Origin: Tumebacillus lacus
GTDB taxonomy: Bacteria > Bacillota > Bacilli > Tumebacillales > Tumebacillaceae
DNA: 64,000 nt
Reading direction: 5' to 3'
Assembly: GCF_026410385.1 (NCBI RefSeq)
Contig: NZ_JAPMLT010000015.1
Location: forward strand, 1-64,000
A model generated the notes under the pieces. It was not told the DNA's origin. It searched no databases and worked only from the letters and a program-made list of their open reading frames with translations. This document shows positions 3,693-64,000 of this stretch, piece after piece (positions within the stretch are counted from its first letter, which is position 1; each line of letters starts with the position of its first letter). Both the position numbers and the translations under genes were made by a program.

Positions 3693-3713
3693 GTCAGACA
3701 GATCGATAAAAGA

Positions 3714-4391: not shown

Positions 4392-4443
4392 AAACATGCG
4401 AATCGCCGATCCCGCGTCGGGTCCGATTCGCATGTTTTTTCTT
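4392..4443 (+). terminator. Terminator after the CuA lipoprotein gene
   Basis: A 14-bp perfect stem (4392-4405 with 4424-4437) followed by a T-rich stretch. Confidence 0.85.
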
Positions 4444-4547
4444 TTCCCGCCCTTTTTCTTCGACCCATGAAACATAGACAAGTTCTTCCACGTCTTTCCA
4501 TATGAATAAGATGTTGAAGATGTGGAATGGGGATGGAGGGGCAACAC

Positions 4548-5297: not shown

Positions 5298-5597
5298 CAA
5301 CGCCTGTCTCGCATACGGTGCAAGCCGCCCGAATAGTCTCCTTCTTGCAACCCACAACAGCGGGAAGACGCGCCTGACAGCGCCGCTGTCGGCTGAGCGG
5401 TCTGTCGGTCGGCGGCGTGTCCGAGCGGGCGATTGCGCAAGACTCAGGATGGAGGCAACACATGTGGTTGTCACGGCCGTCAGCGGAGGCGGGGCTGACG
5501 GCGAGTCTTTCTCTTTTGCGAGTTGTTCCAAGGGAATCAAACAACTATGGCGAAATAGTCAAAGAGTGTTGAAACTCTAAAGAAACAGGAGGTCAAC
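5298..5597 (+). other. 300-bp intergenic leader with strong inverted repeats (candidate structured RNA)
   Basis: No convincing gene is seen between the VanW gene and the histidine kinase. The stretch folds well on paper: AAGACTC (5439-5445) pairs with GAGTCTT (5503-5509) and encloses a CCGTCAGC/GCTGACGG hairpin (about 5477-5501) plus a smaller CAAC/GTTG hairpin, giving a three-way junction. A GACAGCG/CGCTGTC repeat lies near 5376. It does not match a riboswitch class I can recognise by eye. It may be the leader of the kinase gene. Confidence 0.3.
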
Positions 5598-6695
5598 GTG
5601 GAACGTTTTGACATTTCGTCTTCTGACAAACAGGCGAACCGTCTCCGGTTGAAAGAGCATTTGGAGACCAGCTTTGATTTTTATAAATCATTATTCAAGA
5701 TGCATCCGGATGCGATCTATGCGATGGATCCGGAAGGGTTCTTTCTGTGCGCCAACGCCGGGTTTGAGCGGCTGACCGGCTGGAGCGAAGCGCAATACAC
5801 CCGGATGACGTACCGGATGCTGATTATGCCGGACGAACTGGAGCGCGTGGACGGATATTTTGCGGAAGGCTTGCAAGGGAAGTCGCAGGAGTTCGAGACG
5901 AGCATCCTCCGCCGCGACGGCCGCGTCGTGCATCTGCAGATGATCTGCCTGCCGATCTGGATCGACGGCGAGATCGTCGGGGCGCACGGCATCGCCAAGG
6001 ACATCACTGAGATCAAACAGGCGGAGCAACGGTTGCTCCGCTCGGAAAAGCTCTCCATCGCCGGTCAAGTGGCGGCCGGTCTCGCCCATGAGATCCGCAA
6101 CCCGCTCACCTCGCTGAAAGGGTTTCTGCAGCTGATGGCGGTCAACAAGCGGGAGAGCGAGGAGTACCTGTCGATCATGATGGCCGAACTGGGCCGGATC
6201 GAAGTGATCCTCGGCGAACTGCTCATGCTCGCCAAGCCGCAAGCGGACCGGTTTGCCACGTACGACCTGACGCTGCTTCTCGACGAAGCGGTTTCGTTGC
6301 TGAACACACAGGCGGTGCTCTACAACATCGAGATCGTCGTCACGACGGCGTCCGACTTGCCGTTGCTCTTCTGCGATCCGGCGCAGATCAAACAGGTGTT
6401 TCACAACTTCCTGAAAAACGCCATCGAAGCGATGCCAAAAGGCGGCCGGATCGCTGTCGACATCAGGCAAGACGGATCGGATGCGGTGCTCCTGCGCTTT
6501 GCCGACACCGGCTGCGGGATGTCGAAAGAGCGCGTCGCCGCATTTGGCGAACCGTTTTACACGACCAAGGAAAAAGGGACGGGGCTCGGATCGCTGGTCA
6601 GCAGAAAGATCATCGAAAACCACGGTGGCGAACTGCGCGTCCAAAGTGAACTGAACGTCGGCACGACGATTGAAGTCCGGTTGCCGGTGCGGTAG
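5598..6695 (+). CDS. PAS-domain sensor histidine kinase (sporulation-kinase type)
   Basis: 365 aa, GTG start 8 bases after AGGAGGTC. Residues ~27-142 form a PAS domain (HPDAIYAMDPEGFFLCANAGF, then a PAC segment). The dimerisation domain carries the H-box with His164 (GLAHEIRNPLTSLKG), followed by the N-box NFLKNAIEAMP, G1 DTGCGM, F-box and G2 GTGLG of the ATPase domain. There is no membrane segment, so it is a soluble sensor. The H-box region is of the type found in Bacillus KinA/KinE sporulation kinases. No response regulator is adjacent, as expected for an orphan phosphorelay kinase; that role is inference. Confidence 0.9.
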   Translation: MERFDISSSDKQANRLRLKEHLETSFDFYKSLFKMHPDAIYAMDPEGFFLCANAGFERLTGWSEAQYTRMTYRMLIMPDELERVDGYFAEGLQGKSQEFETSILRRDGRVVHLQMICLPIWIDGEIVGAHGIAKDITEIKQAEQRLLRSEKLSIAGQVAAGLAHEIRNPLTSLKGFLQLMAVNKRESEEYLSIMMAELGRIEVILGELLMLAKPQADRFATYDLTLLLDEAVSLLNTQAVLYNIEIVVTTASDLPLLFCDPAQIKQVFHNFLKNAIEAMPKGGRIAVDIRQDGSDAVLLRFADTGCGMSKERVAAFGEPFYTTKEKGTGLGSLVSRKIIENHGGELRVQSELNVGTTIEVRLPVR

Positions 6696-49951: not shown

Positions 49952-50370
49952 CTTTCATTTCCCACCATGCGAAGGAGTTTTTTTATTTTGGAGGCAGTGG
50001 CAGTCAAACACTTTCTCTCCCTCCATCGTCTACTTTTACGAGGTGATACAAAATGGACGTGGCATTGAATGCCGCGATAGATAAGCGTGCGTTGTTGCGT
50101 GAGTTGACAGACCAGACGATGTGGCCGAAACATTCGTCTAAATATTCAGCTTTCTCATGTAATCAATTTCCCATTGGCGGGTTCCAATACTTGTAGAGGG
50201 AAAGTGGGCATAGGATTTGGTATGCTGAAAAGAGAATTCGCAGTGTTATGTCTACTTCAATCACCACAAAATGGGATTCTTTCCCTGATAAGGCAGGTCT
50301 TCTTCTCTAGGCTGGAGAAGTATAGAATGTTTGGAATACTTATGAGGACGACCGAATTGGAGGCTGGATG
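49952..50370 (+). other. Intergenic region with a possible remnant ORF
   Basis: About 420 bases between the EamA terminator and moxR, more AT-rich than the flanks. One short ORF (next entry) has a good ribosome site. The remainder up to the moxR start shows no gene I can support; an open frame at 50174-50371 lacks a site and has no recognisable features. The moxR promoter should lie here, but no strong -35/-10 pair stands out. Confidence 0.5.
50053..50196 (+). CDS. Possible 47-aa peptide or gene fragment
   Basis: ATG 50053 is preceded by a good site (GAGGTGATACAAA) and reads 47 codons to TAG at 50194. The first ~25 residues (MDVALNAAIDKRALLRELTD) look like a normal protein start; the tail is low in structure and may be out of the original frame. 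It may be a decayed 5' fragment of a larger gene. No family recognised. Confidence 0.3.
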   Translation: MDVALNAAIDKRALLRELTDQTMWPKHSSKYSAFSCNQFPIGGFQYL

Positions 50371-51360
50371 ATGTTGACTCAAGATCGTGATCTTGTGAAT
50401 CGTGAATTTGATAATCCCCGCGATGTGTTGGTGGAAGTTGTAAATAATGTAGAACGCGTGATCGTCGGCAAATCGAAAGCGGTGCAACTGTGCCTGGTCG
50501 CGTTGCTCTGCGGCGGCCATGTGTTGCTGGAGGACGTGCCGGGCGTCGGCAAAACGATGCTGGTGCGCGCGATCTCCAAGTCGCTCGGCTGCTCGTTCAA
50601 GCGCATTCAGTTCACTCCCGACCTGCTCCCGTCCGACGTAACCGGCGTGTCGATCTACAATCAAAAGACGACCGAGTTTGAATTCCGCCCGGGTCCGATC
50701 CTCGCCAACGTGGTGCTGGCCGACGAGATCAACCGCACGTCGCCCAAAACGCAGTCGGCGCTGCTCGAAGCGATGGAGGAGGGCAACATCACCGTCGACG
50801 GCACGACCTACAAACTGCCGTCCCCGTTCCTCGTCATGGCGACGCAAAACCCGATTGAGTACGAAGGCACGTTCCCGCTGCCGGAAGCTCAACTCGACCG
50901 CTTCCTGCTGAAAATGAACCTGGGCTATCCGAATCAGGAAGATGAGATCGCGATGCTCGCCCGTCAGCAACTCCAGCATCCGATTGAGACGATCGATCAA
51001 GTGACCGACCTTGAAATGCTTCAGACGATGCAGAAACAGGCGCGCGAAGTCTATGTGGAAGAGAGCATCCGCGAGTACATCGTCAAGATCGCCACGGAGA
51101 CCCGCAACCATCAAGCGGTCTATCTCGGTGCATCGCCGCGCGGCTCGCTGGCTCTCTTCCGGGCGGCACAGGCGCTGGCCTACATCCTCGGCCGCGATTA
51201 TGTGGTACCGGATGATGTGAAGGAACTGGTGCCGACGACGCTGACGCACCGCATCATTTTGAAAAGCGAAGCCCGCCTGAACGGTCAGACGACGGAGCAG
51301 ATCCTTCAGGACATCCTCAAGGCGATCCCGGTTCCGGTCATCCGCGAACGGGCGAAGTAA
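50371..51360 (+). CDS. MoxR-family AAA+ ATPase
   Basis: 329 aa from ATG 50371 (50368 also possible) behind TTGGAGG. Walker A EDVPGVGKTML, Walker B VVLADEINRTSPKTQSALLEAMEE, sensor 1 MATQNP, sensor 2 GASPRGSLALFRAAQALA. MoxR ATPases act as chaperone-like activators of proteins, usually together with a DUF58 protein as here. First gene of the three-gene operon moxR-DUF58-transglutaminase. Confidence 0.95.
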   Translation: MLTQDRDLVNREFDNPRDVLVEVVNNVERVIVGKSKAVQLCLVALLCGGHVLLEDVPGVGKTMLVRAISKSLGCSFKRIQFTPDLLPSDVTGVSIYNQKTTEFEFRPGPILANVVLADEINRTSPKTQSALLEAMEEGNITVDGTTYKLPSPFLVMATQNPIEYEGTFPLPEAQLDRFLLKMNLGYPNQEDEIAMLARQQLQHPIETIDQVTDLEMLQTMQKQAREVYVEESIREYIVKIATETRNHQAVYLGASPRGSLALFRAAQALAYILGRDYVVPDDVKELVPTTLTHRIILKSEARLNGQTTEQILQDILKAIPVPVIRERAK

Positions 51361-51374
51361 GGGGTGGGGTCCCG

Positions 51375-52598
51375 ATGAAACGCTTTGGACGGATCATGCT
51401 CTGGGCGGCGCTCGTGCTCGTCGCTTTCTCGTACGGGAACTTTCAGGGCGGGTTCGCCGCGTGGTTTCTTTTTTACGCCACGTTCTTGATCGCCCTGTAC
51501 GAATGGCTGACCGAGCGGTACGCGCTGCGCAGTTCGACCTCCACCCGCCGACTCTCCTCGCACCGGCTGACGGCCGGGCAGACGCTGGAGGTCGATGTGC
51601 TGGTGGAGGTGCAGGGAAAATTTCCTCTGCCGTGGGTGGTGGTGGAAGACTCGCTGCCGACCCGCCTCTTGCTGCAGAGCGGCTCGAACCGCGAACTGCA
51701 TTTCCCCGGCTTTGACCGCAAACTGCGGGTGACGTATCACCTGCAAAACATGCCGCGCGGCAAATACACCATCGGCGACACACACCTGGTCACCGGGGAT
51801 GTGTTCGGCCTGTACCGCAAAGAGGCGGTGCACCGCCGAAGCGATGAGGTGACGGTGTATCCGCGCGTGATGCCGATCAAATACTGGCATTCGGTGCACA
51901 AATTCAACACGGGCAACTCCTATGCACAAAACCGGATGACCGAAGACTCGGCCAACGTCATCGGCGTGCGCGACTATGCACCGGGAGATCGTCTGTCGCG
52001 CATTCACTGGCGGGCGTCTGCCCGCACCGGTTCGCTGAAGACGAAAGAGTTCGAGTTGCACGTCACCAACGACATGATGTTTTTCCTGAACCGCACCGCC
52101 CGCGACTATATGGGGGCGAGCCAGCAATTGTTTGAGCTGGCGGTGACGACGTGCGCGTCCCTGTCCAAATACGCGCTGCAACGGAAATTTTCTGCCGGGC
52201 TCGTCTCCTACGGCCGCGACCGGATGACGATCCCGCAGAGTCGCAACGAAGAACATTATTTCCGCATCATCGAGCATCTGGCGGTGGTGCAGCCGGACGG
52301 CGACTCGGAGTTTCGCGACGCGATCCTGCGCGAGGTCAACTACTTGCAGCGAGGAAGCACGGTGGTGCTGGTCACGCCGGTGCTCGATGACGAGATCGTC
52401 AAACTGATCGGCTTCCTCGAATATCGCAAGGTCAAGGCGGAGTTGTTTTACGTCGTCGGTGGCCGTACGGTGGACGAGACCGATCATGCGCGCATCGGCA
52501 AACTGTCGACGCTCGGGGTGCACACGTATCTCCTCCATGAGGAAAATGATCTGGAAGACGCAGTAAGGGGGCCGGCTGCTTATGCTTCGAACAGCTAG
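51375..52598 (+). CDS. DUF58 family protein
   Basis: 407 aa, ATG 14 bases after moxR. Two N-terminal hydrophobic helices (about 5-45), a beta-rich middle, then the DUF58 signature VIGVRDYAPGDRLSRIHWRASART (about 195-218) and a vWA-like C-terminal fold. Works with the MoxR ATPase at the membrane; precise function unknown. Its end overlaps the transglutaminase gene by 17 bases. Confidence 0.92.
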   Translation: MKRFGRIMLWAALVLVAFSYGNFQGGFAAWFLFYATFLIALYEWLTERYALRSSTSTRRLSSHRLTAGQTLEVDVLVEVQGKFPLPWVVVEDSLPTRLLLQSGSNRELHFPGFDRKLRVTYHLQNMPRGKYTIGDTHLVTGDVFGLYRKEAVHRRSDEVTVYPRVMPIKYWHSVHKFNTGNSYAQNRMTEDSANVIGVRDYAPGDRLSRIHWRASARTGSLKTKEFELHVTNDMMFFLNRTARDYMGASQQLFELAVTTCASLSKYALQRKFSAGLVSYGRDRMTIPQSRNEEHYFRIIEHLAVVQPDGDSEFRDAILREVNYLQRGSTVVLVTPVLDDEIVKLIGFLEYRKVKAELFYVVGGRTVDETDHARIGKLSTLGVHTYLLHEENDLEDAVRGPAAYASNS

Positions 52599-54753
52599 AT
52601 GGATCACGGGCAGTTTCTTGCGCGACGCGGTGCTGTTTGCGCTGGTCACGCTGTGGCTCCACCAGTTGCTGGTGCCGTTCGGGGAAGCGACGAACATTCC
52701 GAGCGTGACGTTGTTCACGACGTTTATCGGGCTGCTGTTCGTCAGCGACCTGATCGTCGGCGGATGGATTCCCCGCTTGCTCCTGAAGGCGCTGGTGCTG
52801 ATCCTCTTTATGTACAGCGGGTATTACAAACACTATGCCTTTATTGAGATGACCTGGATGACGCACTGGTTGAGCGATCTGTATTACACGGTCCGAGCGG
52901 CGTTCTCCTCTGATCTCGATCTGTTGCCTGAGTCGGGGCGGACGACCGTGTTCTTCCTGACGTTGTGGATGTTCCAGACGTTTTTCCGCCAGAGCTTGAA
53001 CTCCCGGATGTGGATGTTTGTGTTTCTGTTGATCGGTTCGATCGGGCTTGGCGTGCTGGATTCGTTTTTTGTCAAAGATGCCAAGTGGAACATCGTGCTG
53101 TTCCTGTTCCTCGGCCTGTTGATCCTCTCGTTCATGCAGTTGCCGGCCATCGAGCGCATCGCCCGCATGCCGCGCCGGATGAGTGGCTGGCCGACCGAGT
53201 GGCTGGTCTGGACGCTGGTGCTGTCTGTGATCGTCGTCGGGACGTCCTCGGCCGCGCCGAAGATCAAAGAGCCCAACTGGCCGGACCCGGTCGCGTTCCT
53301 TCAGTCGAAAAAGGGATCGGGCGCGACGGTGCAAAAAATCGGCTACGGCAACGACGACACGAGGCTCGGCGGGCCGTTCCAGATGGATGAACAAGTCGTG
53401 TTCACCGTCAAGACCAGCGTCGAGCAGTACTACCGCGGCGAGGCCAAAACCACGTACACCGGCAAAGGCTGGCTGTCTTCTTCCGTCGGCGAGGTCGTGA
53501 GCGACCTGCGAGACATGCGGCACCTGCAACGCATGGAGCCGGTCGTGATGGAAGGCGAGCAAGTCGTGCAGGAGTATCAGTTCAAGTCCGATATGGTGCC
53601 GGTCGTATTTAACCAGTATCGGATGACCGGGGTCGAGCTGATCAATCCGGCGCAGACGACGCTGTTGTACAGCGATCTCGACAGCCGGCTGTCGCTCAAC
53701 TCCTTGAACGAAGGGGACAGCTACCGCGTGTCCTCGCTGATTCCGTATTTTGATGAAAAGAAATACAACGGCGCGAACGTGCCGTCGCCAAACCCGATGA
53801 CCCGTCCGTATCTGTCGCTGCCGGTGACGTTGCCGCAGCGGGTCAAAGATCTGGCGCGGGAGATCACCGCCGATGCCAAGACGCCGTATCAACGGGCGGA
53901 GGCGATCGAAACGTACCTGCGCAACACCTACTCCTATGAGACCAAGGACGTGCCGGTGCCGGACGAAGAGCAAGACTTTGTCGATCAGTTCCTGTTTGAT
54001 TCGTTGCGCGGCTACTGCGACCACTTCTCGTCGTCGATGGTCGTGATGGCGCGCTCGGTCGGGCTGCCGGCCCGTTGGGTGAAAGGCTTCACCAAAGGCG
54101 ACGTCGATCTGACGTACCGCGGTGAGAAGGAAGGCGAGTATCTCTACGTCGTGAAAAATCGCAACGCGCACTCCTGGCCGGAGATTTACTTTGAAGAGAT
54201 CGGCTGGGTGGCGTTCGAACCGACGTCGACGTTCTCGATGCCGCATTTGTTCAAGCCGGATGAAGAGACGTCTGTGCCGCTGCCCGTCCCGACAGAGGAG
54301 GCGCCGAAGCAGGAGAAAGATCTGGAAAACGAAACGGCGACCACAACCGCGTCCTCGTTTGAGATCGATTGGAAAGCGCTCGGCAAAGGGTCGCTGTGGA
54401 TCGCCGGGATCGCGCTCTTGTTGGCGTTCTTCTTCCGCCGTCAACTGGTCACCGCGTGGTATCTGCGACGGGCCTACCGCTCCGACGGCGAAGTGGCCGA
54501 CCACGCGCTGCGCCGCCTGCTCTATGTGCTCGGCAAGCTCGGGTACAAGCGGCAGGCCGACATGACGTTGCGCGAGTACGCGGTCAGCCTCTCGGCAGAC
54601 CCGTCGCTGCGGGGCCGGGAGATGGTCTCGCTGGCGAAGATCTTCGAGCGGGTGTTCTACGGCAAAGAACGCTCCGTATCGGACAAAGAGAAGGGGCAAA
54701 TCCGCGACCTTTGGACGCGGATCATTCGCAAAGCAGGTCGTCAAAAACGTTAA
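52582..54753 (+). CDS. Membrane transglutaminase-like protein (TgpA type)
   Basis: 723 aa. About six membrane helices in the first 220 residues, an outside domain with the transglutaminase core (about 415-545): Cys479 in RGYCDHFSSSMVVMARSVGLPARWVKG, His530 in NRNAHSWPEIYF and the acidic third residue just after it. A second membrane segment near 615-635 and a cytoplasmic C-terminal domain (DUF4129-like, ERVFYGKE) follow. Probably a cysteine protease or transglutaminase acting outside the cell, controlled by the MoxR/DUF58 pair; this is inferred from the conserved gene trio. Confidence 0.92.
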   Translation: MLRTARWITGSFLRDAVLFALVTLWLHQLLVPFGEATNIPSVTLFTTFIGLLFVSDLIVGGWIPRLLLKALVLILFMYSGYYKHYAFIEMTWMTHWLSDLYYTVRAAFSSDLDLLPESGRTTVFFLTLWMFQTFFRQSLNSRMWMFVFLLIGSIGLGVLDSFFVKDAKWNIVLFLFLGLLILSFMQLPAIERIARMPRRMSGWPTEWLVWTLVLSVIVVGTSSAAPKIKEPNWPDPVAFLQSKKGSGATVQKIGYGNDDTRLGGPFQMDEQVVFTVKTSVEQYYRGEAKTTYTGKGWLSSSVGEVVSDLRDMRHLQRMEPVVMEGEQVVQEYQFKSDMVPVVFNQYRMTGVELINPAQTTLLYSDLDSRLSLNSLNEGDSYRVSSLIPYFDEKKYNGANVPSPNPMTRPYLSLPVTLPQRVKDLAREITADAKTPYQRAEAIETYLRNTYSYETKDVPVPDEEQDFVDQFLFDSLRGYCDHFSSSMVVMARSVGLPARWVKGFTKGDVDLTYRGEKEGEYLYVVKNRNAHSWPEIYFEEIGWVAFEPTSTFSMPHLFKPDEETSVPLPVPTEEAPKQEKDLENETATTTASSFEIDWKALGKGSLWIAGIALLLAFFFRRQLVTAWYLRRAYRSDGEVADHALRRLLYVLGKLGYKRQADMTLREYAVSLSADPSLRGREMVSLAKIFERVFYGKERSVSDKEKGQIRDLWTRIIRKAGRQKR

Positions 54754-54777
54754 CGACGAACGATGCCAGATTTATCG

Positions 54778-54807
54778 TTGACGAATGTTCGTGTTTTACA
54801 GTAGAAT
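54778..54807 (+). promoter_or_regulatory. Promoter of the guaA riboswitch transcript
   Basis: TTGACG (54778-54783), 18-base spacer, TAGAAT (54802-54807); transcription would start near 54814, just before the aptamer. Confidence 0.7.
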
Positions 54808-54821
54808 GGTGTCGAAGCAAG

Positions 54822-54986
54822 CGCTCGTATATTGTCGGGGATAGGGCCCGGCAGTTTCTACCGGCCGCCGTAAAGGGCCGACTACGAGGTCGACACTGTG
54901 CGGAATCGGTGCACCCTGTTTTCCTCGTATGTCCTTGGTAGGGATTTCCCATACTAAGGCATGCATGGAAGACGGGGTGTTTTTTG
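54822..54986 (+). promoter_or_regulatory. Guanine riboswitch with terminator, upstream of guaA
   Basis: The aptamer (about 54822-54890) has P1 CTCGTA/TACGAG, the purine-box loop sequences (TATATTGTCGGG, GTTTCTACCGG, GTAAAGGGCCGACTA) and a C at the ligand-specifying position in GACTACGAG, so guanine or hypoxanthine rather than adenine. The terminator pairs 54912-54924 with 54967-54979, followed by TTTTTT. The 3' half of P1, TACGAGG (54883-54889), is exactly complementary to CCTCGTA (54923-54929), which overlaps the terminator stem: this is the antiterminator. Guanine therefore stops transcription of guaA and the permease. Confidence 0.93.
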
Positions 54987-55027
54987 TTTGACTCCGTTTT
55001 TACTCCAGTTTGGAAGGAATGAAGAGA

Positions 55028-56569
55028 ATGGAAAACCGTGAAATTGTCATCGTTCTCGATTTTGGCGGTCAATACAACCAATTGATCACCCGCCGCATCC
55101 GGGAATTAAACGTATATGCTGAACTGTTGTCGCCGAAGACCACGGCAGCGGAATTGAAAGAGAAGTATCCTAATTTGAAAGGCATCATCTTCTCCGGCGG
55201 CCCGAACAGCGTCTATGGCGAAGGGGCGCCGAAGGTCGACCCGGCCGTGTTTGAGATGGGGCTGCCGATCTTTGGGATCTGCTACGGGATGCAATTGATG
55301 GCCGATCATTTTGAAGCAAAAGTCGAGCGGGCCGACATCCGTGAGTACGGCAAAGCGATGATCGATGTGACCGGCGATTCGCCGATGTTCCGCGAGCAAC
55401 CGGTTTCCCAGCAGGTGTGGATGAGCCACACCGACAAAGTGGTGGCGGTGCCGGCCGGATTTACGGTCAACGCTTCGACGGAGACCTGCCCGGTGGCGGC
55501 GATGAGCGATGCGAGCCGCAAGTTTTACGCGGTGCAGTACCACCCGGAAGTCAATCACTCCCTCTACGGCCAGGAGCAACTGCGCCGCTTCCTGTACGAC
55601 GTGTGCGAGTGCGAAGGCACCTGGACGTCTGCCAACTTTGTGGAAGACGCGATTGCGAAGATCAAAGAGCAGGTCGGCGACAAGAAAGTGCTCTGCGCGC
55701 TATCCGGCGGCGTGGATTCGTCCGTTGCGGCGGTGCTGGTGCACCGGGCGATCGGGGACAACCTGACCTGCATGTTCGTCGACCACGGGCTGCTGCGCAA
55801 AAACGAAGCGGAGCAAGTCATGGAGATGTTTGCCGGCGAGTTTAAAATGAACGTGGTCAAAGTCGACGTGCGCGACCGCTTCCTCGGCCGTCTCGAAGGC
55901 GTGACCGATCCGGAGCGCAAACGCAAGATCATCGGCGAAGAGTTTATCCGCGTGTTCGAAGAAGAGTCGAAGTCGCTGGGTCACTTTGATTTCCTCGCGC
56001 AAGGCACGCTGTACACCGACATCATCGAGTCCGGCACGGCGACGGCGGCGACGATCAAGTCCCACCACAACGTCGGCGGGCTGCCGGAGGACATGCAGTT
56101 CCAACTGGTCGAGCCGCTGAACACGCTGTTCAAGGACGAAGTGCGCGCGGCCGGCACGGAGCTCGGCATCAAAGACGAGATCGTGTGGCGTCAACCGTTC
56201 CCGGGTCCGGGTCTTGCGATCCGCATCATCGGTGACATCACGAAAGAAAAGCTGGAGATCCTCCAAGACGCAGACTTCGTGGTGCGCGACGAGATCCGCC
56301 GCTCGGGCCTCGACAAAGAGATCTGGCAATACTTCGCGGTGCTGCCGGACATTCGCTCCGTCGGCGTCATGGGCGACGAGCGCACGTATGCGTACACCAT
56401 CGCGATCCGCGCGGTGACGTCGAGCGACGGGATGACGGCCGACTGGGCACGGATTCCGTACGATGCGCTGGAACGGCTGTCGACCCGTCTGGTCAACGAA
56501 GTGAAAGACGTCAACCGCGTGGTGTACGACATCACGTCCAAACCGCCGGCGACGATTGAGTGGGAATAA
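55028..56569 (+). CDS. guaA: GMP synthase (glutamine-hydrolysing)
   Basis: 513 aa from ATG 55028, nine bases after GGAAGGA; an ATG at 55019 abuts the site. Turns XMP into GMP using ATP and glutamine. Class I amidotransferase domain with Cys in GICYGMQLM and His-Glu in YHPEVNH; ATP pyrophosphatase loop [12 protein letters not shown]-terminal dimerisation domain ending TIEWE. Controlled by the guanine riboswitch upstream, which makes product-feedback sense. 51 bases to the permease gene. Confidence 0.98.
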
Positions 56570-56620
56570 GGCAGTCACCTCGACTTAGAACAGTCGAAGC
56601 AACTAGGGGGAGAGCTTACC

Positions 56621-58015
56621 ATGTTGGAACGCTATTTTAAACTCGGTGAATTTGGGACCAACCCCCGTACCGAGATCATCGCGGGGATCACGACGTTCGT
56701 CACGATGGCCTACATTCTGTTCTTGAACCCGGTCATCCTCAAGGGGACCGGGATGCCGGAAAACGCCGTCTTTATCGCGACGGCGCTTGGGGCGGGCATC
56801 GTCACGCTGATGATGGGCCTGTTCGTCAACTTCCCGGTCGGTCTCGCACCGGGCATGGGCCTCAATGCGTACTTTGCAGTCGTTGCCGCTTCGCAAGGCG
56901 GTGCGCTGACGTGGCAACAAGCGTTGGCGGCGGTGTTTGTTTCCGGTCTGATCTTCATCTTGCTCACCGTCACCGGCTTCCGTCAGTTGCTCGTCCGTGC
57001 GTTGCCTGATTCGCTGAAATTTGCGATCACCGTCGGGATCGGTCTCTTTATCACCTTGATCGGTCTCAAACTCGGTCAGGTGATGGGCATGACCTTCCTC
57101 AGCGGCCCGTCGACCGAAGCGATCAAAGGCGGCGCACCTGCCGTCAACCTGCTCTTCTTCGAATGGAACATCGGCATCGCAAACTTCGTGGACAATAAAG
57201 TGGCTGCGTTGACCATGATCGGCCTGCTGATCGCCGGCGTACTGACCACCCTGCGCATTCGCGGCGCTCTGCTGATCGGCATCGTGCTCACCACCTTGAT
57301 CGGCATTCCGATGGGTGTCACCGACGTGTCCAAGTTTGGCTCGATGTCGTTCGTGCCGGACTTCTCCAACCTGACGCTCGGCCAGCTCGACTTCGGCCAG
57401 ATCGCGTCCGGCGTGTTCTGGGAAATCGTCATCATCTTCGTCTTCGTCACGCTGTTTGACTCCTTCGGCACGTTGGTCGGCACGGCTAACCGCGCGGGCC
57501 TGCTCAACCGCCCGGACGGCGAAAAGCGCCTCGGACGCGCGATGTTCGTCGACGGTTCAGGCGTCTCCATCGGCGCATTGATCGGCGTCACGCCGATGAC
57601 CGCCTACATCGAGTCGGCTGCCGGCATCGAGTCCGGCGGCCGCACCGGTCTGACGGCTGTCACAACCGGCGTGCTGTTCCTGCTCTCGATCTTCCTGCTC
57701 GCTCCGTTCGTCGCGATCATCCCGGATGCGGCGACGTCTCCGGCGCTGATCATCGTCGGCGTGCTGATGATGGGTTCGGTTCGCAACATCGACTGGGATG
57801 ACTTCGGCATCGCGATGCCGGCCTTCCTGACGATTGCGCTGATGCCGTTCACCTATTCCATCGCCAACGGCGTCTCGGCGGGGATCATCTCCTTCGTAAT
57901 CCTGAACGGCGTCCGCAACCTCGTGGACAAAAACGCGAAGGTAAAAGTGCACTGGCTGATGTACGTGATCGCCGTGCTGGCTCTCGCACGTTACATCTTC
58001 CTGGCTGGGGAGTAA
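56621..58015 (+). CDS. pbuG: NCS2-family guanine/hypoxanthine permease
   Basis: 464 aa, ATG after AGGGGGAG. Twelve or more membrane segments of the AzgA/PbuG subgroup: RTEIIAGITTFVTMAYILFLNP, GLAPGMGLNAYFA, and LFDSFGTLVGTANRAGL plus IGVTPMTAYIESAAGIESGGRTGL in the second half. Imports guanine and hypoxanthine. Sitting behind guaA under the guanine riboswitch supports the substrate call. Ends at a strong terminator shared with the MFS gene. Confidence 0.92.
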   Translation: MLERYFKLGEFGTNPRTEIIAGITTFVTMAYILFLNPVILKGTGMPENAVFIATALGAGIVTLMMGLFVNFPVGLAPGMGLNAYFAVVAASQGGALTWQQALAAVFVSGLIFILLTVTGFRQLLVRALPDSLKFAITVGIGLFITLIGLKLGQVMGMTFLSGPSTEAIKGGAPAVNLLFFEWNIGIANFVDNKVAALTMIGLLIAGVLTTLRIRGALLIGIVLTTLIGIPMGVTDVSKFGSMSFVPDFSNLTLGQLDFGQIASGVFWEIVIIFVFVTLFDSFGTLVGTANRAGLLNRPDGEKRLGRAMFVDGSGVSIGALIGVTPMTAYIESAAGIESGGRTGLTAVTTGVLFLLSIFLLAPFVAIIPDAATSPALIIVGVLMMGSVRNIDWDDFGIAMPAFLTIALMPFTYSIANGVSAGIISFVILNGVRNLVDKNAKVKVHWLMYVIAVLALARYIFLAGE

Positions 58016-58031
58016 TCATAGGTAAAAAGAA

Positions 58032-58077
58032 CAAAGCCCGTTTCCAAGAGATTCAACTCTGGGAAACGGGCTTTGTT
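58032..58077. terminator. Two-way terminator between the purine permease and MFS genes
   Basis: A 14-bp perfect stem CAAAGCCCGTTTCC (58032-58045) with GGAAACGGGCTTTG (58062-58075). On the minus strand the read-out continues into TTCTTTTTACC. The last codons and stop of the MFS gene lie inside the hairpin. Confidence 0.85.
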
Positions 58078-59321
58078 TCGTTGTGGATGTGATAGTGCCG
58101 CAAACGGGAGAAGCACAGCCCGACCAGCACGCAAGCAAACAATAGGGTGGCTCCGAGTCCGTATGTGTTTCGCGAGCCGAGCCATTCGCCGATGATGCCG
58201 ATCCCGCCGTAGGTCACCGGGATCGCGAGGTTCAGCCCCATCGTCATGACGCTGTTGACGCGGCCGCGCATGTCGGACGGGGTCAACAGTTGGAGCAGAG
58301 TGGACATCGGCAGCGAGGCGAGCATGACGGCGAGGCCGAGGAGGAGATTGCCCAGACAGGCGATGTAAAGGTGGTCGGCGACGGCGACGAACAGCATGCC
58401 GATGCCTTGCAGTCCCAGCCCGGTCAAGAACCAGAGTCCGATGCGCTTTGGAGCCAGCAAGGAGACGAGCAGACCGCCCGCGATCAGTCCGAGTGCGATG
58501 GCTCCGTCAAACAGACCGAGTGCGTGGGAGTCGGCTCCCAGTTCGTCTTGGATGTACATCGAAGGCAGGACGTTGGTCGGGCCGAGGGCGATGTTGGAGA
58601 TCATGCCGATCAAGATAAGCACGACCAGGATCTGCTGCGTTTTCAACCAAGCGATCCCGGCTTTGGCTTCCGACCAGAGGGGCGGTTTGGCCGGCCGTTC
58701 GGACGAGGGTCGCTCTTGTTCCGAGTGCGGCAGAATCAACCGGTACAGGAAAAAGAGCGAGACGAGGAACGTCAGCGAGTTGATGCCGATCGCCCAGACG
58801 GCGCCGAACGTTGCGACGAGCAGCCCGCCCGCCGTCGCGCCGATCAAGCGGTTCAGTTGGCGCGAGGTCGCCATCAGTGAATTGGCACGCAGCAGGTGTT
58901 CTTTGGCGACCAAATCCGGGAGCATGGCGTTTTGCGAGGTGGAAAACAGCAGATCGGACAGAGACAGACAGATCGTGACGAGATAGATCTGCCACAGCGC
59001 AAACCAATCGAGAGCAAACGACAGAGCCAACGCCGCTGTGGCGAGAGCGCGCACCCAGTCGGACAGCATCATCAGGAGTTTGCGGTTCCACCGGTCGGCC
59101 GCCGCGCCGAGAAACAGACCGAGCAGCATTTGCGGCAGGAAGGCGGAGATCAGCAACAGCGCGACTTGGACGGACGATCCGGTCAGGGTGTAGACTTGCC
59201 ACGAGATCGCGAGCGAGTAGACCGAATTTCCAAAATAGGAGACGGTCTGCCCGAGCCAGAGATTACGGTATGGTTGTGAGGCAAAAAGCAGTTGCCAGTC
59301 ACGAGTGCCGTTCTGTTTCAT
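58053..59321 (-). CDS. MFS transporter, likely exporter of the adjacent RiPP
   Basis: 422 aa, twelve membrane helices. The start FASQPYRNLWLGQTVSYFGNSVYSL and the loop LGAAADRWNRKLLMMLSDW (motif A: G-x3-DR-x-R) are typical of the MFS subgroup of macrolide/enterobactin-type exporters. The ATG overlaps the stop of the radical SAM gene by ATGA, so the two proteins are made together; export of the modified peptide is the natural inference. The stop codon lies in the loop of its own terminator. Confidence 0.85.
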   Translation of the reverse strand: MKQNGTRDWQLLFASQPYRNLWLGQTVSYFGNSVYSLAISWQVYTLTGSSVQVALLLISAFLPQMLLGLFLGAAADRWNRKLLMMLSDWVRALATAALALSFALDWFALWQIYLVTICLSLSDLLFSTSQNAMLPDLVAKEHLLRANSLMATSRQLNRLIGATAGGLLVATFGAVWAIGINSLTFLVSLFFLYRLILPHSEQERPSSERPAKPPLWSEAKAGIAWLKTQQILVVLILIGMISNIALGPTNVLPSMYIQDELGADSHALGLFDGAIALGLIAGGLLVSLLAPKRIGLWFLTGLGLQGIGMLFVAVADHLYIACLGNLLLGLAVMLASLPMSTLLQLLTPSDMRGRVNSVMTMGLNLAIPVTYGGIGIIGEWLGSRNTYGLGATLLFACVLVGLCFSRLRHYHIHNETKPVSQS

Positions 59322-61537
59322 TCGGCCTGCAACTGCGGGACGCGCGCATCGGCTGCCACCGACACGGGACGGAGGAAATGGTGTTTGACGCTGTGATCAA
59401 ACAGCCCCTTGCACGCTTTGCGCTGATCGGCGGCCACGCTGTCCAGCACGTCTTGCAGGGAACGGCCGTCGGCGAAACTCAGCAGGAACTCCAGCATCGT
59501 CTCGGGGAACGGATAGAGCGTGCCGTCCGAGCGCAGAAAGAAGCGTTTGAGCGAAGGCGCATCGGCGCGGGCGATCTTTTGTTGGGCGAGACGGGTGTGG
59601 ATCTCGCGACCCGGAACGCCCCTGCCTTGCTTGTTGTCGGCGTTGTGCAGATTTGCCAGATCCGATTTGTTGTACAGGCGGTCGATCGGGTACAAGGCGA
59701 TGTCCGATTGGACGGTGCCGTTCAGCTTCCAAACCGTTTGCGGATCTGAAAATTTCCGAGAAGCGTCCAACTCGTCGATGATGCCGACTCCAAACCGGTC
59801 GTGATAGAACATGGTGTGCCCGGTATCGATGCCCCCCACCCAAGGCCGGTCGAAGTGGCTTTTGGACAGCTTGCCTTTCGCCTTTTTCAGTTTTTCGCGA
59901 TCCTCATCACGGGAGACACCTGTCGGGTCCTCGAAGTACAGGGAGCGGGCGATGTCTTCATTTTCATACGCTTTCACGTTTTGCAGACCGAACGACTCCG
60001 GTTGTTTGGCGACAATGGCACCGGGGGTGAGCACGAAGGTGCCGAGGCCGCCGAACGTCCACCGGTCTTTGGTTTCGTACAGGAACTCGATGGAGTCAAG
60101 ACCGTCTTGCAGGCTCTCGGTCGGGAATCCGGTGAAGCCCATCACCTGCACACCGATGTTGGCATCATGGAAGTTTTGGATCGTTTCCCGAATCTTGCCG
60201 ACCTGTGTGCCTTTGTTGATCAGGTTGAGAATGCGCTGGTTGCCCGATTCAAAGCCGACGGAGATGTCCGTGCAGCCGCTCGCTTTTAAAAGCATGCACC
60301 GCTCGGGTGACCAGTATTTCTCCAAGCGGATCTCAGCCCCCCAACGGATGTCGATCTGTTCCTCGATCAGCCGCTCGGCCAGACTCAGCAGCAGGGCCGG
60401 GGAGAGGACGTCGACGGAGAAATAGACGTATTTGTGCTTTTGCGAGATGACACGCAGGTCTTCGATGATCTTTTCGACAGGATTTTGCCGCCACGGGGAG
60501 GTCGGGGATTCAAAGTTGAGTCCGTAATCGCAGAACGTGCATTTGTTCCAGTAGCAACCGCGTGAGGGGGAGTAGTAGACGTAGTTGTGCGGCGAGAGGT
60601 AGAGGTCCCAGTTCAATTTGTCGTAGTTGGGTGTGGGCAGTTCGGCGATGCCGCCGTATTCGATGATCGGTTCGAGCAGGGTGTGGCCGTATTTGGGATG
60701 GAACAGGGTGTTGGCGATCGGCGTGAAAGAGCCGCCGTCGCGGATCGTCTCAAGCAGGGAGGTGAACGCGATCTCGCCTTCTCCGACGACACAAGCGTCC
60801 GCCATGTCAAAGATCTCGAAATAGCGGGATTTGCGTTGCAAATACTTCCAGACGTCCGCCACTTCCGTGCCCCCGTAGAGCAGGATGATGTCGGGAAATG
60901 CGGCTCGGATCATCCGGCCGATCGTCAAGGCGAACGGGAGTTGGGCGCAGTAGGTGACATTGATGCCGACGGTGCGATACCCTTTTTCGGCGATCTGAGG
61001 CAGCAGGACGTCACGCATGTACGGCTCAAACGGTGCGGCGATTTTGGCGCAGATGTCCGGGTCGCTCATATCTTGGGAGCTCATCAGGTTAAACTGGCCG
61101 TGCACCGGCAGTGAAAATCCGCTGAACTGGCCGGGGTAGCCGAAGAGGGAGAGCACACCGAGCCAACTGAGGATCAGTTCGGTGGCCGGGCGGTAGGTGG
61201 AGTAGTCGTAAAACGTCTCTTCCACACGCATAGCCTGTACAGCGGCGGGCAGTCGGTCAAAGTCGAAGCTTTGTGCTTTCCACAGGTGGAACAGCTCAAG
61301 TTGGTCTGCGGCGTTGAGTTCCGGTTGTGCGGTCAATTCCTGGAATCGGTTCTCGATGTGGGAGCGGATGCGCTCGATCTGGTCGGGACGAATGGTATAC
61401 AGAAACGATTCAATGTTGGTGTCGAGGATATCGATATCGTCAAATCCATGCTGTCTGGCGTACGTCTCCAGATAGCACAGACTGTGATAGCCGGATGTCG
61501 GGTCGGTGATCGGCGGGTACAGCAAGAGCGTGGTCAA
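59318..61537 (-). CDS. Radical SAM RiPP maturase with N-terminal cobalamin-binding-like domain and C-terminal PqqD/RRE-like region
   Basis: 739 aa from TTG 61537, eight bases after GAGGAGG; an in-frame ATG at 61636 would translate through a long stem-loop and lacks a site. Residues ~160-270 resemble a B12-binding domain (YRTVGINVTYCAQLPFAL, LLYGGTEVADV, VVGEGEIAFTSLL). The 4Fe-4S motif is C328-x4-C333-x2-C336 (RGCYWNKCTFCDYG), one residue longer than the usual CX3CX2C. The last ~70 residues (LRSDGTLYPFPETMLEFLL, FADGRSLQDVLDSVA) look like a PqqD-type peptide-recognition domain. Predicted to modify the poly-Asn precursor encoded upstream, possibly by C-methylation; chemistry unknown. Confidence 0.8.
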   Translation of the reverse strand: MTTLLLYPPITDPTSGYHSLCYLETYARQHGFDDIDILDTNIESFLYTIRPDQIERIRSHIENRFQELTAQPELNAADQLELFHLWKAQSFDFDRLPAAVQAMRVEETFYDYSTYRPATELILSWLGVLSLFGYPGQFSGFSLPVHGQFNLMSSQDMSDPDICAKIAAPFEPYMRDVLLPQIAEKGYRTVGINVTYCAQLPFALTIGRMIRAAFPDIILLYGGTEVADVWKYLQRKSRYFEIFDMADACVVGEGEIAFTSLLETIRDGGSFTPIANTLFHPKYGHTLLEPIIEYGGIAELPTPNYDKLNWDLYLSPHNYVYYSPSRGCYWNKCTFCDYGLNFESPTSPWRQNPVEKIIEDLRVISQKHKYVYFSVDVLSPALLLSLAERLIEEQIDIRWGAEIRLEKYWSPERCMLLKASGCTDISVGFESGNQRILNLINKGTQVGKIRETIQNFHDANIGVQVMGFTGFPTESLQDGLDSIEFLYETKDRWTFGGLGTFVLTPGAIVAKQPESFGLQNVKAYENEDIARSLYFEDPTGVSRDEDREKLKKAKGKLSKSHFDRPWVGGIDTGHTMFYHDRFGVGIIDELDASRKFSDPQTVWKLNGTVQSDIALYPIDRLYNKSDLANLHNADNKQGRGVPGREIHTRLAQQKIARADAPSLKRFFLRSDGTLYPFPETMLEFLLSFADGRSLQDVLDSVAADQRKACKGLFDHSVKHHFLRPVSVAADARVPQLQAE

Positions 61538-61577
61538 TGAACAAACCTCCTCTACGGGGTCAAGAGAGAATAGGGAG

Positions 61578-61643
61578 ACGCCTGTTGTCTCCTCCCTCTG
61601 TGTATGTACGCGTGTGGCGCACGAGGAAGGAAACAACAGGCGT
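61578..61643 (-). promoter_or_regulatory. Long stem-loop between RiPP precursor and maturase genes
   Basis: 21-bp stem (61578-61598 with 61623-61643) around a 24-base loop. The two non-Watson-Crick positions are G-U pairs only when read on the minus strand, the direction of the operon. No T-run follows, so it is not a plain terminator; it may stop RNase decay or partly terminate, giving more precursor mRNA than enzyme mRNA. Function is inference. Confidence 0.65.
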
Positions 61644-61653
61644 TGTGACGGGA

Positions 61654-61755
61654 TCAGTTGTTATTGTTGTTGTTGTTCGTGTCGTCGATCAATTGTACTT
61701 GCTCGATCTCGGATGTGATGCCCTCAACTTCGCTGAGCAGGTTGTTCAGATCCAT
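61654..61755 (-). CDS. RiPP precursor peptide with C-terminal poly-asparagine core
   Basis: 33 aa, ATG 61755 seven bases after a perfect AGGAGGT, stop TGA at 61656-61654. The first ~25 residues are an acidic, helical-looking leader (MDLNNLLSEVEGITSEIEQV then QLIDD), and the last eight are Thr followed by seven Asn. Position directly upstream of, and same strand as, the radical SAM gene with its recognition-type domain makes it the likely substrate. Too short for most gene finders. A minus-strand TATAGT (61831-61826) could be its -10 box, but no clear -35 is seen. I know of no precursor with this core. Confidence 0.75.
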   Translation of the reverse strand: MDLNNLLSEVEGITSEIEQVQLIDDTNNNNNNN

Positions 61756-61929
61756 GTGACAGACCTCCTTTTGTAATGGATACGGAAAACATTTCTTGTG
61801 AAACCGAGTTGGATTTCACAGATTCACTATACGGATGGAAGTATGGGGATATAACTAAAAGGTGAAGAAGTAAAAAGTTTTATTTGGTTGAACTGTAACA
61901 GAACAGATGGTAGGACGAGCGGAGCGGAG

Positions 61930-61959
61930 TTGCATGTATGAGGCGGAGTGTGTTAGCAT
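61930..61959 (+). promoter_or_regulatory. Promoter of antitoxin RNA, copy 2
   Basis: TTGCAT (61930-61935), 18-base spacer, TAGCAT (61954-61959), the same as in copy 1. Confidence 0.6.
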
Positions 61960-61965
61960 ATACAT

Positions 61966-62105
61966 AACAAAAGGAGCCGAGTGGCTGCTCGGCTCCAACA
62001 GTAACAACTGACTTGGGTGTCGATTCCGCCGCCTGAGTTATCGAAAAGCGGGGGAAGTAGCCACCACCAAGGTCGCCAAACCGTGGGTGGCTATTTCTTT
62101 ATTTC
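61966..62105 (+). ncRNA. Candidate antisense antitoxin RNA, type I toxin-antitoxin copy 2
   Basis: Predicted from about seven bases after the TAGCAT box to a terminator pairing TAGCCACC (62058-62065) with GGTGGCTA (62086-62093) plus T-rich tail. It covers the toxin mRNA 3' region and the toxin stop codon. The GGAGCCGAG/CTCGGCTCC hairpin (61973-61996), read on the minus strand, is followed by TTTTGTT and is the likely toxin mRNA terminator. Confidence 0.6.
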
Positions 62106-62197
62106 GTGATTAAAAACACGAACGTCAGCAAGGCGATGAGAAACATGCCGAATTGGAAAAGCAACGACAGGATACTCAAGAGATCCTTACCTTTCAT
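62099..62197 (-). CDS. Holin-like type I toxin peptide, copy 2
   Basis: 32 aa: MKGKDLLS then a single hydrophobic helix with the core LLFQFGMFLIALLTFVF, ending ITK. The core is nearly identical to copy 1, while the N-terminus and the tail differ. GGAGGTGAGG lies ~10 bases upstream; its GGAGG can pair with CCTCC (plus strand 62208-62212 with 62219-62223) and be masked. Small membrane toxin of the TxpA/BsrG/holin-like class. Lies between the RiPP precursor and gamma-glutamyltransferase. Confidence 0.8.
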   Translation of the reverse strand: MKGKDLLSILSLLFQFGMFLIALLTFVFLITK

Positions 62198-62267
62198 CTA
62201 CGCCTCACCTCCTTTTGCGGAGGAAAGACGGCACCCAAGGTTTCGCTATTCAGTTGTCACTGATCCC

Positions 62268-62296
62268 AGTATAGCAATCTCGTAAATGGTTGCCTA
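62268..62296 (-). promoter_or_regulatory. Promoter of holin-like toxin, copy 2
   Basis: Minus strand TAGGCA (62296-62291), 17-base spacer, TATACT (62273-62268). The mRNA would start near 62261. Its first bases (62261-62250) and a second block (62239-62232) are complementary to 62000-62011 and 62012-62019 near its 3' end, in the right order for a long-distance 5'-3' pairing. Confidence 0.65.
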
Positions 62297-62332
62297 GGGA
62301 CATGAGTGTTTTAAAATCGATGAAATATGACT

Positions 62333-62373
62333 AATAAAAAGCCCCGCTCTTCTGTATCCGGAAGAGCGGGGCT
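62333..62373 (-). terminator. Terminator after gamma-glutamyltransferase
   Basis: AGCCCCGCTCTTC (62340-62352) pairs with GAAGAGCGGGGCT (62361-62373); on the minus strand followed by TTTTTATTAG. Confidence 0.85.
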
Positions 62374-62380
62374 GTTCGTT

Positions 62381-63985
62381 TTACCAAGCGGCCACCGAGC
62401 CATCCGTTCTCGGCTCCGTGCCGCCTGCCAGCACGCCTTGCTCACCGCGCCAGATGATCTGGCCGCGACCGAACGATCCCGAGCCGAGGGCCCAGCGGAT
62501 GTCGTGGCCGCGGGCGGCGAGGGTGGCTGCGATGAGGGCGGGGACGGTGTGTTCGAGCTCGACCGTCTTGCCTTTCAGCCACTGCCAGCGGGGAGCATCG
62601 AGCGCCGCTTGCGGGTTGAGGTGAAAATCGACGGTGTTCATCACGACCTGCACATGCCCCTGCGGCTGCATGAAGCCGCCCATCACGCCAAACGGGCCGA
62701 CCGCTTCACCGCCCCGGGTGAGGAAGCCGGGGATGATCGTGTGGTACGTTTTTTTGCCGCCGGCGAGCGCGTTGTCGTGCGTCGGATCGAGCGAGAAGTT
62801 GTGCCCGCGATTTTGCAGGGCGATGCCGGTGCCGGGCACGACGAGACCGGAGCCGAAGCCCATGTAGTTGCTTTGGATGAACGAGACCATGTTGCCTTCG
62901 CCGTCTGCCGTCGCCAGATAGACGGTGCCGCCCTTTGGCGGTTCACCCGGCGTCGGGAGCAGTGCTTCGGTGCCGATCAACCGGCGACGCTCCGCCGCGT
63001 ACGCCTCGGAGAGCAGGTCGCGCACGGCGACTTTCATCTGCCCGGCGTCTGTGATAAACCGCTGGCCGTCGGCAAATGCCAGTTTGATCGCCTCGATGGA
63101 CTTGTGGTAGGTGTCGAACGTGTCCTTTTCCGTGAAATCAAACCCTTTGAGCAGGTTCAACGCGATCAGGGCGACCAGACCTTGCCCGTTCGGCGGGATC
63201 TCCCACACGTCGTAGCCCCGGTAATTGACCGAGATCGGGTCCACCCATTCCGGGCGGAATGCGGCGAGGTCCTCGACAGACAGATAGCCGCCATTTGCCT
63301 GCACAAACGCCGCGATCTTCTCCGCCAGCTCGCCCTGGTAAAACGCCTTGCCGTTCGTCTCCGCGATCAACTGCAACGTGCGGGCAGGATCCTCCGACCG
63401 CCACATCTCGCCGATGCGCGGCACTCGTCCGTCCGTCGTGAAAGTGTTGAACCAAGGGTGGAACTCCTCGCCTTGGAGCCCGGCATACGTTTTCGACGCC
63501 CGCTCCCAGTAATAGCCGAGCGTTGGTGACACGGGGTAGCCTTGCTCCGCGTATTCAATCGCCGGACGCAGCACTTCGGTCAGCGGCAGACGGCCAAATC
63601 GTGCCGACAACTCCGCCCATGCACCGGGTGCACCGGGGACGGTGACGGGGATCGCGCCGAATTTGGGCATCTCGGTGAGGCCGCGCTTTTGCAACGCTTC
63701 GATGGAGATCGACTGAGGGGCCGGGCCGGAGGAGTTCAGCCCGTGCAGCTTGCCCTCCGTCCAGACGAGGGCAAACGCGTCGCCGCCGATGCCGTTCGAC
63801 GTCGGCTCGACCACCGTCAGAGCAGCGGCGGTGGCGATGGCTGCGTCGATCGCATTGCCGCCCCGTTTCAATAGATCGAGCCCGGCTTGAGCGGCGAGCG
63901 GCTGCGAGGTGGCGACCATGCCGTTTTTGGCATAGGCGGTCATCCGCTGGGAGGGATACGGGTGGTGCAAGGGGTTAAAGTTCAT
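62381..63985 (-). CDS. ggt: Gamma-glutamyltransferase
   Basis: 534 aa, ATG 63985 with AGGAG at the window edge, so the gene appears complete. Ntn hydrolase that cleaves itself; the new N-terminal nucleophile is Thr354 in KGGTVYLATADGEGNMV. Other family blocks: GGNAIDAAIATAAALTVVEP, GIGGDAFALVW, and GFMQPQGHVQV at the end. Transfers or hydrolyses gamma-glutamyl groups of glutathione-like compounds. I see no signal peptide, so this is the cytoplasmic YwrD-like branch rather than the secreted Ggt. Confidence 0.92.
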   Translation of the reverse strand: MNFNPLHHPYPSQRMTAYAKNGMVATSQPLAAQAGLDLLKRGGNAIDAAIATAAALTVVEPTSNGIGGDAFALVWTEGKLHGLNSSGPAPQSISIEALQKRGLTEMPKFGAIPVTVPGAPGAWAELSARFGRLPLTEVLRPAIEYAEQGYPVSPTLGYYWERASKTYAGLQGEEFHPWFNTFTTDGRVPRIGEMWRSEDPARTLQLIAETNGKAFYQGELAEKIAAFVQANGGYLSVEDLAAFRPEWVDPISVNYRGYDVWEIPPNGQGLVALIALNLLKGFDFTEKDTFDTYHKSIEAIKLAFADGQRFITDAGQMKVAVRDLLSEAYAAERRRLIGTEALLPTPGEPPKGGTVYLATADGEGNMVSFIQSNYMGFGSGLVVPGTGIALQNRGHNFSLDPTHDNALAGGKKTYHTIIPGFLTRGGEAVGPFGVMGGFMQPQGHVQVVMNTVDFHLNPQAALDAPRWQWLKGKTVELEHTVPALIAATLAARGHDIRWALGSGSFGRGQIIWRGEQGVLAGGTEPRTDGSVAAW

Positions 63986-64000
63986 GAAAGGAGCACTCCT

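Follow-up and report, generated by a model that had tools for sequence, protein, structure and literature searches.

A candidate minimal RiPP cassette in Tumebacillus lacus with an asparagine-tract precursor and a cobalamin-type radical SAM maturase

What does a radical S-adenosylmethionine (SAM) enzyme act on when it is encoded beside a 33-residue peptide that ends in seven asparagines? The question arises in the window, i.e. the whole stretch of 64,000 nucleotides analysed here (positions 1 to 64,000 of contig NZ_JAPMLT010000015.1 of Tumebacillus lacus), where an earlier note, made from the letters alone, had described a minus-strand cluster of a 33-residue open reading frame (ORF), a 739-residue radical SAM protein and a major facilitator superfamily (MFS) transporter. 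The ORFs and their coordinates bear out this arrangement (Table 1). The first, of 33 codons, reads MDLNNLLSEVEGITSEIEQVQLIDDTNNNNNNN; its C-terminal TNNNNNNN tract is encoded by AAC/AAT repeats, the core contains no Cys, and the ribosome site seen in the earlier note is a full Shine-Dalgarno sequence, AAAAGGAGGT. The enzyme, hereafter the maturase, starts with TTG at 61537, preceded by GAGGAGG, in agreement with the N-terminus of the relative L079 (MSTLLLYPPITDPTSGYHSL), and its stop overlaps the start of the MFS gene as ATGA. We read the locus as a minimal cassette for a ribosomally synthesized and post-translationally modified peptide (RiPP) in which the Asn tract would be modified, methylation included. 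The pairing of precursor and maturase is, in our judgement, highly probable, and the complete statement is evenly poised. At the level of sequence, the locus has the hallmark of a RiPP, that is, a genetically linked, conserved putative precursor with a leader and a core.

The case for the pairing comes from relatives of the maturase. A scan of genome_contigs yielded 68 loci (L005-L072; the fetches from the own genome, L001-L004, are outside these counts), the best 57 of which (L005-L061) have E values of 4e-78 or better. In 49 of these 57, a small ORF is present whose C-terminal region is rich in Asn, and L048 has a small ORF ending in SNIVIIQ, with a single Asn; the 57 are not independent cases, since many are near relatives (Micromonospora, Streptomyces). 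In the family of the window genome, the maturase (E <= 1e-60) occurs in five of seven genomes and the precursor ORF in all five of these, with the tails TNNNNNNN (window), TNNININ, TNNINIKG, TNNNVIC and six tandem TVPTQNTNNNVC units, the last in a 96-residue precursor from a relative of the window's genus (L074 1053-1343 (-), L078). Among 100 Paenibacillus genomes, 10 encode the maturase, in each case with a 33-residue ORF directly upstream (ending in NNVNNIH, NNINNIH, NNNININ or SNIVIIQ) and an MFS gene at the locus; all 16 distinct Bacillota loci surveyed for companion genes likewise have an MFS gene. The homopolymeric Asn core stressed in the earlier note holds for the window genome, to which it is specific, whereas the relatives mostly mix Asn with Val or Ile or end in Cys.

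Some of these loci have further features. The cluster with the six-unit precursor (L074, L078) also holds two ORFs assigned to the TldD/PmbA metallopeptidase family. In Tumebacillus avium (L008, about 2998-6100), the maturase gene is in two pieces with transposase-like ORFs, recognized by eye, between them, and the precursor (TNNINIKG) is intact; in one Paenibacillus genome (L099, 7066-9281), the maturase gene is split into two frames and the precursor is again intact.

As a control for chance, ATG-initiated ORFs of 22-45 residues with a Shine-Dalgarno match of at least 5 bases were collected from 322,401 bases, comprising the window and 15 Bacillota loci that hold such cassettes. Of the 52 ORFs found, 13 have at least three Asn among the last eight residues, and all 13 lie in cassettes, compared with 0 of the 39 others; the filter (ATG-only, 22-45 residues) misses L008 (TTG start), L096 (one Asn) and L078 (96 residues). 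For 8 of the 10 Paenibacillus precursors, compared with each other, the pooled proportions of nonsynonymous and synonymous differences were pN = 0.074 and pS = 0.494 (pN/pS 0.15), indicative of purifying selection on the predicted precursors. Free variation of the small ORF, which according to the earlier note would speak against a precursor, is not what these Paenibacillus sequences show.

The initial precursors of several groups had been picked with an Asn filter, and leader-only queries, which leave the tails free to differ, served as a counter-check. These queries returned 96 leader-homologous ORFs (duplicate loci included, as L080-L090 overlap L091-L100), 61 of which have at least two Asn in the last 16 residues; the remaining 35 comprise companion peptides that end in CCCPCCCT or an LKLL-like sequence, plus one peptide each from L022 and L047, the one leader-type peptide of L047 having a single Asn (DINLVRIG). 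The leaders that carry Asn tails fall into four kinds (short acidic, aroma-sacti, NHLP-like and Os-type); among relatives, the leaders vary and the Asn core recurs. Two kinds of companion peptide were observed along the way. In L009-L029, e.g. L013 2510-2815 (+), a second NHLP-like peptide ending in ACCCPCCCT lies beside the Asn peptide; in the Streptomyces loci among L034-L060, e.g. L049 846-1562 (-), an LKLL-ending aroma-sacti companion is in frame with a LuxR-type regulator domain, which may be either a fusion or a case of an internal start.

Leader and core come apart in a sample of 81 genomes from the genus that includes Streptomyces sp. 130. The aroma_sacti leader domain (NF045560) scores above its cut-off in 19 of them (two further genomes gave weak matches, below the cut-off and unlike such peptides), and the maturase is present in 2 (E <= 1e-60; with scoring limited to 13 first-look candidates per genome at most, a remote relative could be missed). 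Asn-NxxC tails (NQVNVLC, SNTNVVC) are found solely in the two maturase-bearing genomes among the 19 with the leader, and the 17 without the maturase have peptides ending in AGGALF (14) or AGGVVW (1) or have LKLL and CACGLWSGSG-type peptides (2). Having the leader is not enough to dictate the tail, since both maturase-bearing genomes also have an LKLL companion. The aroma-sacti peptides of L115 and L117 have an LCACGLWSGxG stretch near the end, and the genome also has the Asn type. That the seven-Asn peptide is the substrate, as the earlier note had proposed, is therefore supported by the Asn tails of the relatives, by purifying selection and by the Streptomyces Asn core that tracks the maturase; on genetic grounds, the Asn tract is a well supported substrate.

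Companion genes, detected with hidden Markov models seeded from these same loci, differ between branches. Genes for a SPASM radical SAM enzyme and an HFCD-type flavoprotein are both present in 26 of 26 loci with a Cys-terminated Asn core, and likewise in L031, where the precursor region is cut off; neither gene is found in the 13 distinct Cys-less Bacillota cassettes. All 18 loci in which an NHLP-like leader carries the Asn tail have YcaO and TfuA genes, and so do L015 and L054, where the Asn peptide was not found. In an alignment of 11 flavoproteins, a conserved His is kept in 11 and a P-x-M-N signature in 10 (L007 reads PNME), features that we take to mark peptidyl-Cys decarboxylases. Asn stands at position -3 from the terminal Cys in all 14 distinct tails. 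On a maturase tree of 51 sequences (near-copies and broken genes dropped; several distant rows are long-branched and of unsure placement), the SPASM plus HFCD label needs four changes, at least three of them forced by well-supported branches. The thioether of NxxcA joins Asn20 and Cys23 and is made by NxxcB, according to PMC8326336. With SPASM and flavoprotein companions and the same N-x-x-C spacing as in NxxcA, a thioether followed by terminal decarboxylation is a natural reading of the Cys branch. All branches share a single modifying enzyme, the B12 enzyme, and a single core feature, the Asn run. Two loci, L052 and L055, combine Asn-tail peptides (DNNF, DNNI) with genes for an MFS protein and a haem-oxygenase-like protein (PF14518), without the other companion enzymes sought.

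The description of the maturase as a radical SAM protein stands (PF04055, 54.8 bits, cut-off 29.5), although the earlier note had left its cobalamin-binding-type N-terminal half unmentioned. No NCBIfam model reaches its cut-off on this protein, the nearest being TIGR03975 and PhpK (83.5, cut-off 600), and sub-threshold similarity extends to HpnJ, BchE and others. C328, C333 and C336 are invariant across 51 aligned sequences, a conservation that is partly ascertainment, given that CYWNKCTF had served as a search pattern; a CYWNRCTFC variant is present in genomes retrieved by protein search. An AlphaFold model built from the 51-sequence alignment (pLDDT 92.1) matches OxsB (residues 1-546, Z 20.8, 396 residues), AprD4 (Z 20.2, also the top Foldseek match), TsrM (residues 1-595, Z 20.0, 433 residues) and the glutamine methylase MgmA (Z 18.5, 359 residues). 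By its modelled fold, then, the maturase is to be classed as a cobalamin-dependent radical SAM enzyme, with a predicted cobalamin-binding-type N-terminal half joined to the radical SAM domain. The own genome has three weak maturase matches at 25-27% identity, as well as three PF02441 flavoprotein sites on another contig, and the 45 pattern matches in viral contigs include no relative of the maturase.

Modelled on their own (pLDDT 75.3), the last 145 residues probably form a leader-binding domain resembling a RiPP recognition element (RRE). In the Foldseek ranking, leader-binding domains (the RRE of PbtF and lasso B1 proteins) come first, followed by TigE; a second structure comparison gave TigE (Z 8.9), NisB (8.1), MccB (7.8), TbiB1 (7.6) and TruD (7.5), with Z 6.5-8.9 as the range for RRE-type and similar RiPP enzymes. 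The matched parts of TigE, NisB, MccB and TruD are, we presume, RREs. The PqqD/RRE-like domain suggested in the earlier note thus finds backing in structure comparison, with weak scores.

Cobalamin radical SAM enzymes most often C-methylate. In the mechanism we propose, the RRE-like domain would bind the leader of the 33-residue peptide, and the cobalamin/radical SAM part would act on the C-terminal Asn tract, most likely installing methyl groups by reductive cleavage of SAM and then methylation of Asn carbon through methylcobalamin. A protease encoded outside the cassette would then cut the product, and the MFS protein would export it. C-methylation at carbon atoms of the Asn residues is, in our estimate, an even call. 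The relatives would elaborate this core in two ways: in one, a terminal Cys placed three residues after Asn is served by a SPASM enzyme, perhaps forming an Asn-Cys thioether, and by a flavoprotein of the Cys-decarboxylase type; in the other, the Asn core sits on an NHLP-like leader with a YcaO/TfuA pair. Somewhat more tentatively, the loci may represent a widespread, as yet undescribed RiPP superclass, marked by a core made of an Asn tract and by a cobalamin radical SAM enzyme of the CX4CX2C type dedicated to it, that would yield carbon-modified, e.g. beta- or alpha-methylated, poly-Asn; where the core ends in Cys, formation of an Asn(-3)-Cys thioether and subsequent flavin-dependent decarboxylation of the terminal Cys would give an aminovinyl-thioether ring without dehydration of Ser or Thr.

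Several observations weigh against this interpretation. Seven of the best 57 loci (L015, L022, L031, L047, L053, L054 and L061) yielded no Asn tail, and a contig end truncates only two of them, L022 and L031; nor was an Asn-tailed ORF identified in the 11 remoter loci L062-L072; thus, the rule is not universal, and the small ORFs that the earlier note suggested listing in relatives have the anticipated Asn-rich tail in most loci but not in all. The sole plasmid relative, on a Sinorhizobium plasmid (L101, 34% identity), has flavoprotein and 2-oxoglutarate oxygenase genes and no Asn tail that we could find at the locus. The B12-binding domain PF02310 scores 25.6 bits in the maturase, under the curated cut-off of 32.1. 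For the C-terminal domain, the Foldseek E values are 0.57 or worse, and the putative regulatory protein 3dee (Z 10.0) outranks the RRE-type matches. Finally, cobalamin radical SAM enzymes also catalyse other reactions (OxsB, AprD4) or cross-link, as PbsB does according to PMC12257519.

This last point leads to the foremost alternative, in which precursor and maturase are paired as proposed and the Asn tract undergoes a change other than C-CH3 formation, for example cross-linking (C-C or C-N), dehydrogenation or a different rearrangement. We consider it distinctly less probable than methylation and still a serious contender. The top fold matches include OxsB, which is not a methylase, and AprD4, a diol dehydratase by title; against this, the methylase TsrM is tied near the top, and MgmA, which C-methylates a residue with an amide side chain, is among the best matches. 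The CX4CX2C motif and the low scores to every curated methylase family speak for distance from PoyC-type methylases, and seven identical residues would suit a repeated simple modification more than a defined cross-link. What keeps cross-linking in contention is the precedent in PMC12257519, where a RiPP pathway uses a cobalamin radical SAM enzyme to join aromatic side chains, those of ortho-tyrosines.

It is rather improbable that the Asn tract is simply recognised or tolerated and that the modification sits at another position of the peptide. The AAC/AAT repeats of the window can expand by slippage, so that its tract could perhaps reflect slippage of AAC codons, but Asn recurs at the same end of the peptide on unrelated leaders and is interspersed with Val or Ile in most Cys-less relatives, and synonymous changes dominate in the Paenibacillus precursors. 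L048 and the leader-type peptide of L047 each have a single Asn; against these stand the Asn kept at -3 in every distinct Cys-terminated tail and the Streptomyces sample, where the Asn core appears only alongside the maturase. Least of all do we expect the maturase to act on a small molecule (phosphonate, lipid or cofactor) with the small ORF as an unrelated neighbour, for which the sub-threshold similarity to PhpK, HpnJ, BchE and others could be cited, in view of the co-occurrence in Paenibacillus, the chance control, the leader-only queries and Streptomyces, the RRE-like domain and the RiPP-type companion genes of relatives.

With modification of the Asn tract as the preferred reading, established classes were considered for the window cassette. 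The precursor matches no family in Pfam or NCBIfam, and neither an NHLP leader, as in proteusins, nor the aroma-sacti leader (NF045560), present in relatives, was detected in it; positions 50001-64000 of the window contain no SPASM, YcaO or TfuA match. A sactipeptide or ranthipeptide identity was rejected given the absence of Cys from the core and of SPASM from this region, and a thioamitide identity given the absence of YcaO and TfuA. The maturase falls outside TIGR03975 (PoyB/C type), with a score of 83.9 versus a cut-off of 281.85 and CX4CX2C versus CX7CX2C.

Table 1 Features of the candidate cassette and its surroundings in the window.
Feature	Position	Strand	Basis
Precursor peptide gene, 33 residues, acidic leader and C-terminal TNNNNNNN core	61654..61755	-	ATG ORF; same-position ORFs in relatives
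Cobalamin-type radical SAM maturase, 739 residues, CYWNKCTFC (CX4CX2C), probable RRE-like C-terminus within residues 595-739	59318..61537	-	Domain and structure comparison
MFS transporter, presumed exporter, 422 residues	58053..59321	-	PF07690 114.1 bits, PF05977 106.4 bits
Very stable RNA hairpin in the precursor-maturase intergenic region	61578..61643	-	Minimum free energy -53.8 kcal/mol, z -7.34
Terminator-like hairpin, upstream of precursor gene and downstream of holin-like toxin-family ORF	61996-61973		Terminator scan

The precursor-maturase intergenic pieces of the four relatives tested also fold more strongly than shuffled sequences (L079, z = -4.36; L006, z = -4.02; L077, z = -2.70; L095, z = -2.08), and the hairpin sequence in these relatives differs from that of the window. 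A role as attenuator or stabiliser is possible and would fit keeping the precursor in excess over the enzyme. The terminator scan found 6 such sites in the scanned region versus 4.0 expected. Upstream of the cassette, a 32-residue membrane peptide (62099-62197 (-)) belongs to the holin-like toxin family PF16935 (27.5 bits, cut-off 23.3) and is perhaps a type I toxin; on the other side, a convergent ORF (56621-58015) ends 37 bases from the end of the MFS ORF.

To our knowledge, Asn is rarely used as a RiPP core. The aroma-sacti leader is already named in NCBIfam. What looks new is a radical SAM RiPP with an Asn-tract type of core: the literature searched, from which most subscription papers are missing and which is therefore no proof of absence, yielded neither an account of an Asn-tract or poly-Asn RiPP nor any text on 'aroma-sacti'. 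If the proposal is correct, it adds a RiPP family with an Asn tract as substrate, whose minimal system of precursor and maturase makes the reaction directly testable, and the natural series (Asn only; Asn and Cys with SPASM enzyme and flavoprotein; NHLP-like with YcaO/TfuA) may reveal how one core motif passes between leaders and enzyme sets.

Among known systems, PoyB and PoyC (TIGR03975) are likewise cobalamin-type radical SAM enzymes encoded beside RiPP precursors, and the polytheonamide core contains many Asn. They differ in the CX7CX2C motif (PMC5682303), in place of CX4CX2C here, and the leader in the window is different. MgmA (TIGR04014) shares the cobalamin radical SAM fold and a substrate residue with a side-chain amide, although the maturase scores 34.6 bits against that model's cut-off of 360. 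The substrate of MgmA is a large folded enzyme, methyl-coenzyme M reductase. Aroma-sacti peptides (NF045560, NF045559) have the leader of many actinobacterial relatives, a leader not found in the window precursor, and 17 of the 19 leader-bearing Streptomyces have other cores and no maturase. The Cys-terminated relatives keep the N-x-x-C and the SPASM gene of the NxxcA ranthipeptide, with its Asn-Cys C-beta thioether (PMC8326336), but add cobalamin radical SAM and flavoprotein genes, and the window core is without Cys or SPASM. Relatives of the Micromonospora/Actinoplanes type have the YcaO and TfuA of thioamidated RiPPs; in PMC8120280, B12-binding radical SAM genes stand beside YcaO/TfuA in clusters of Bradyrhizobium and Desulforegula, for which methylation was suggested. 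The precursors described there are CCRG-2- and Nif11-like, and YcaO/TfuA are not part of the window cassette. The Bacillota RiPP family of PMC13381572 was judged unrelated to the cassette. Lastly, the biphenomycin-like PbsB system is, according to PMC12257519, MNIO-dependent and directed at an aromatic motif that it cross-links, unlike the modification proposed here, and has in common with it a cobalamin radical SAM enzyme within a RiPP pathway, there accompanied by a TldD-type protease.

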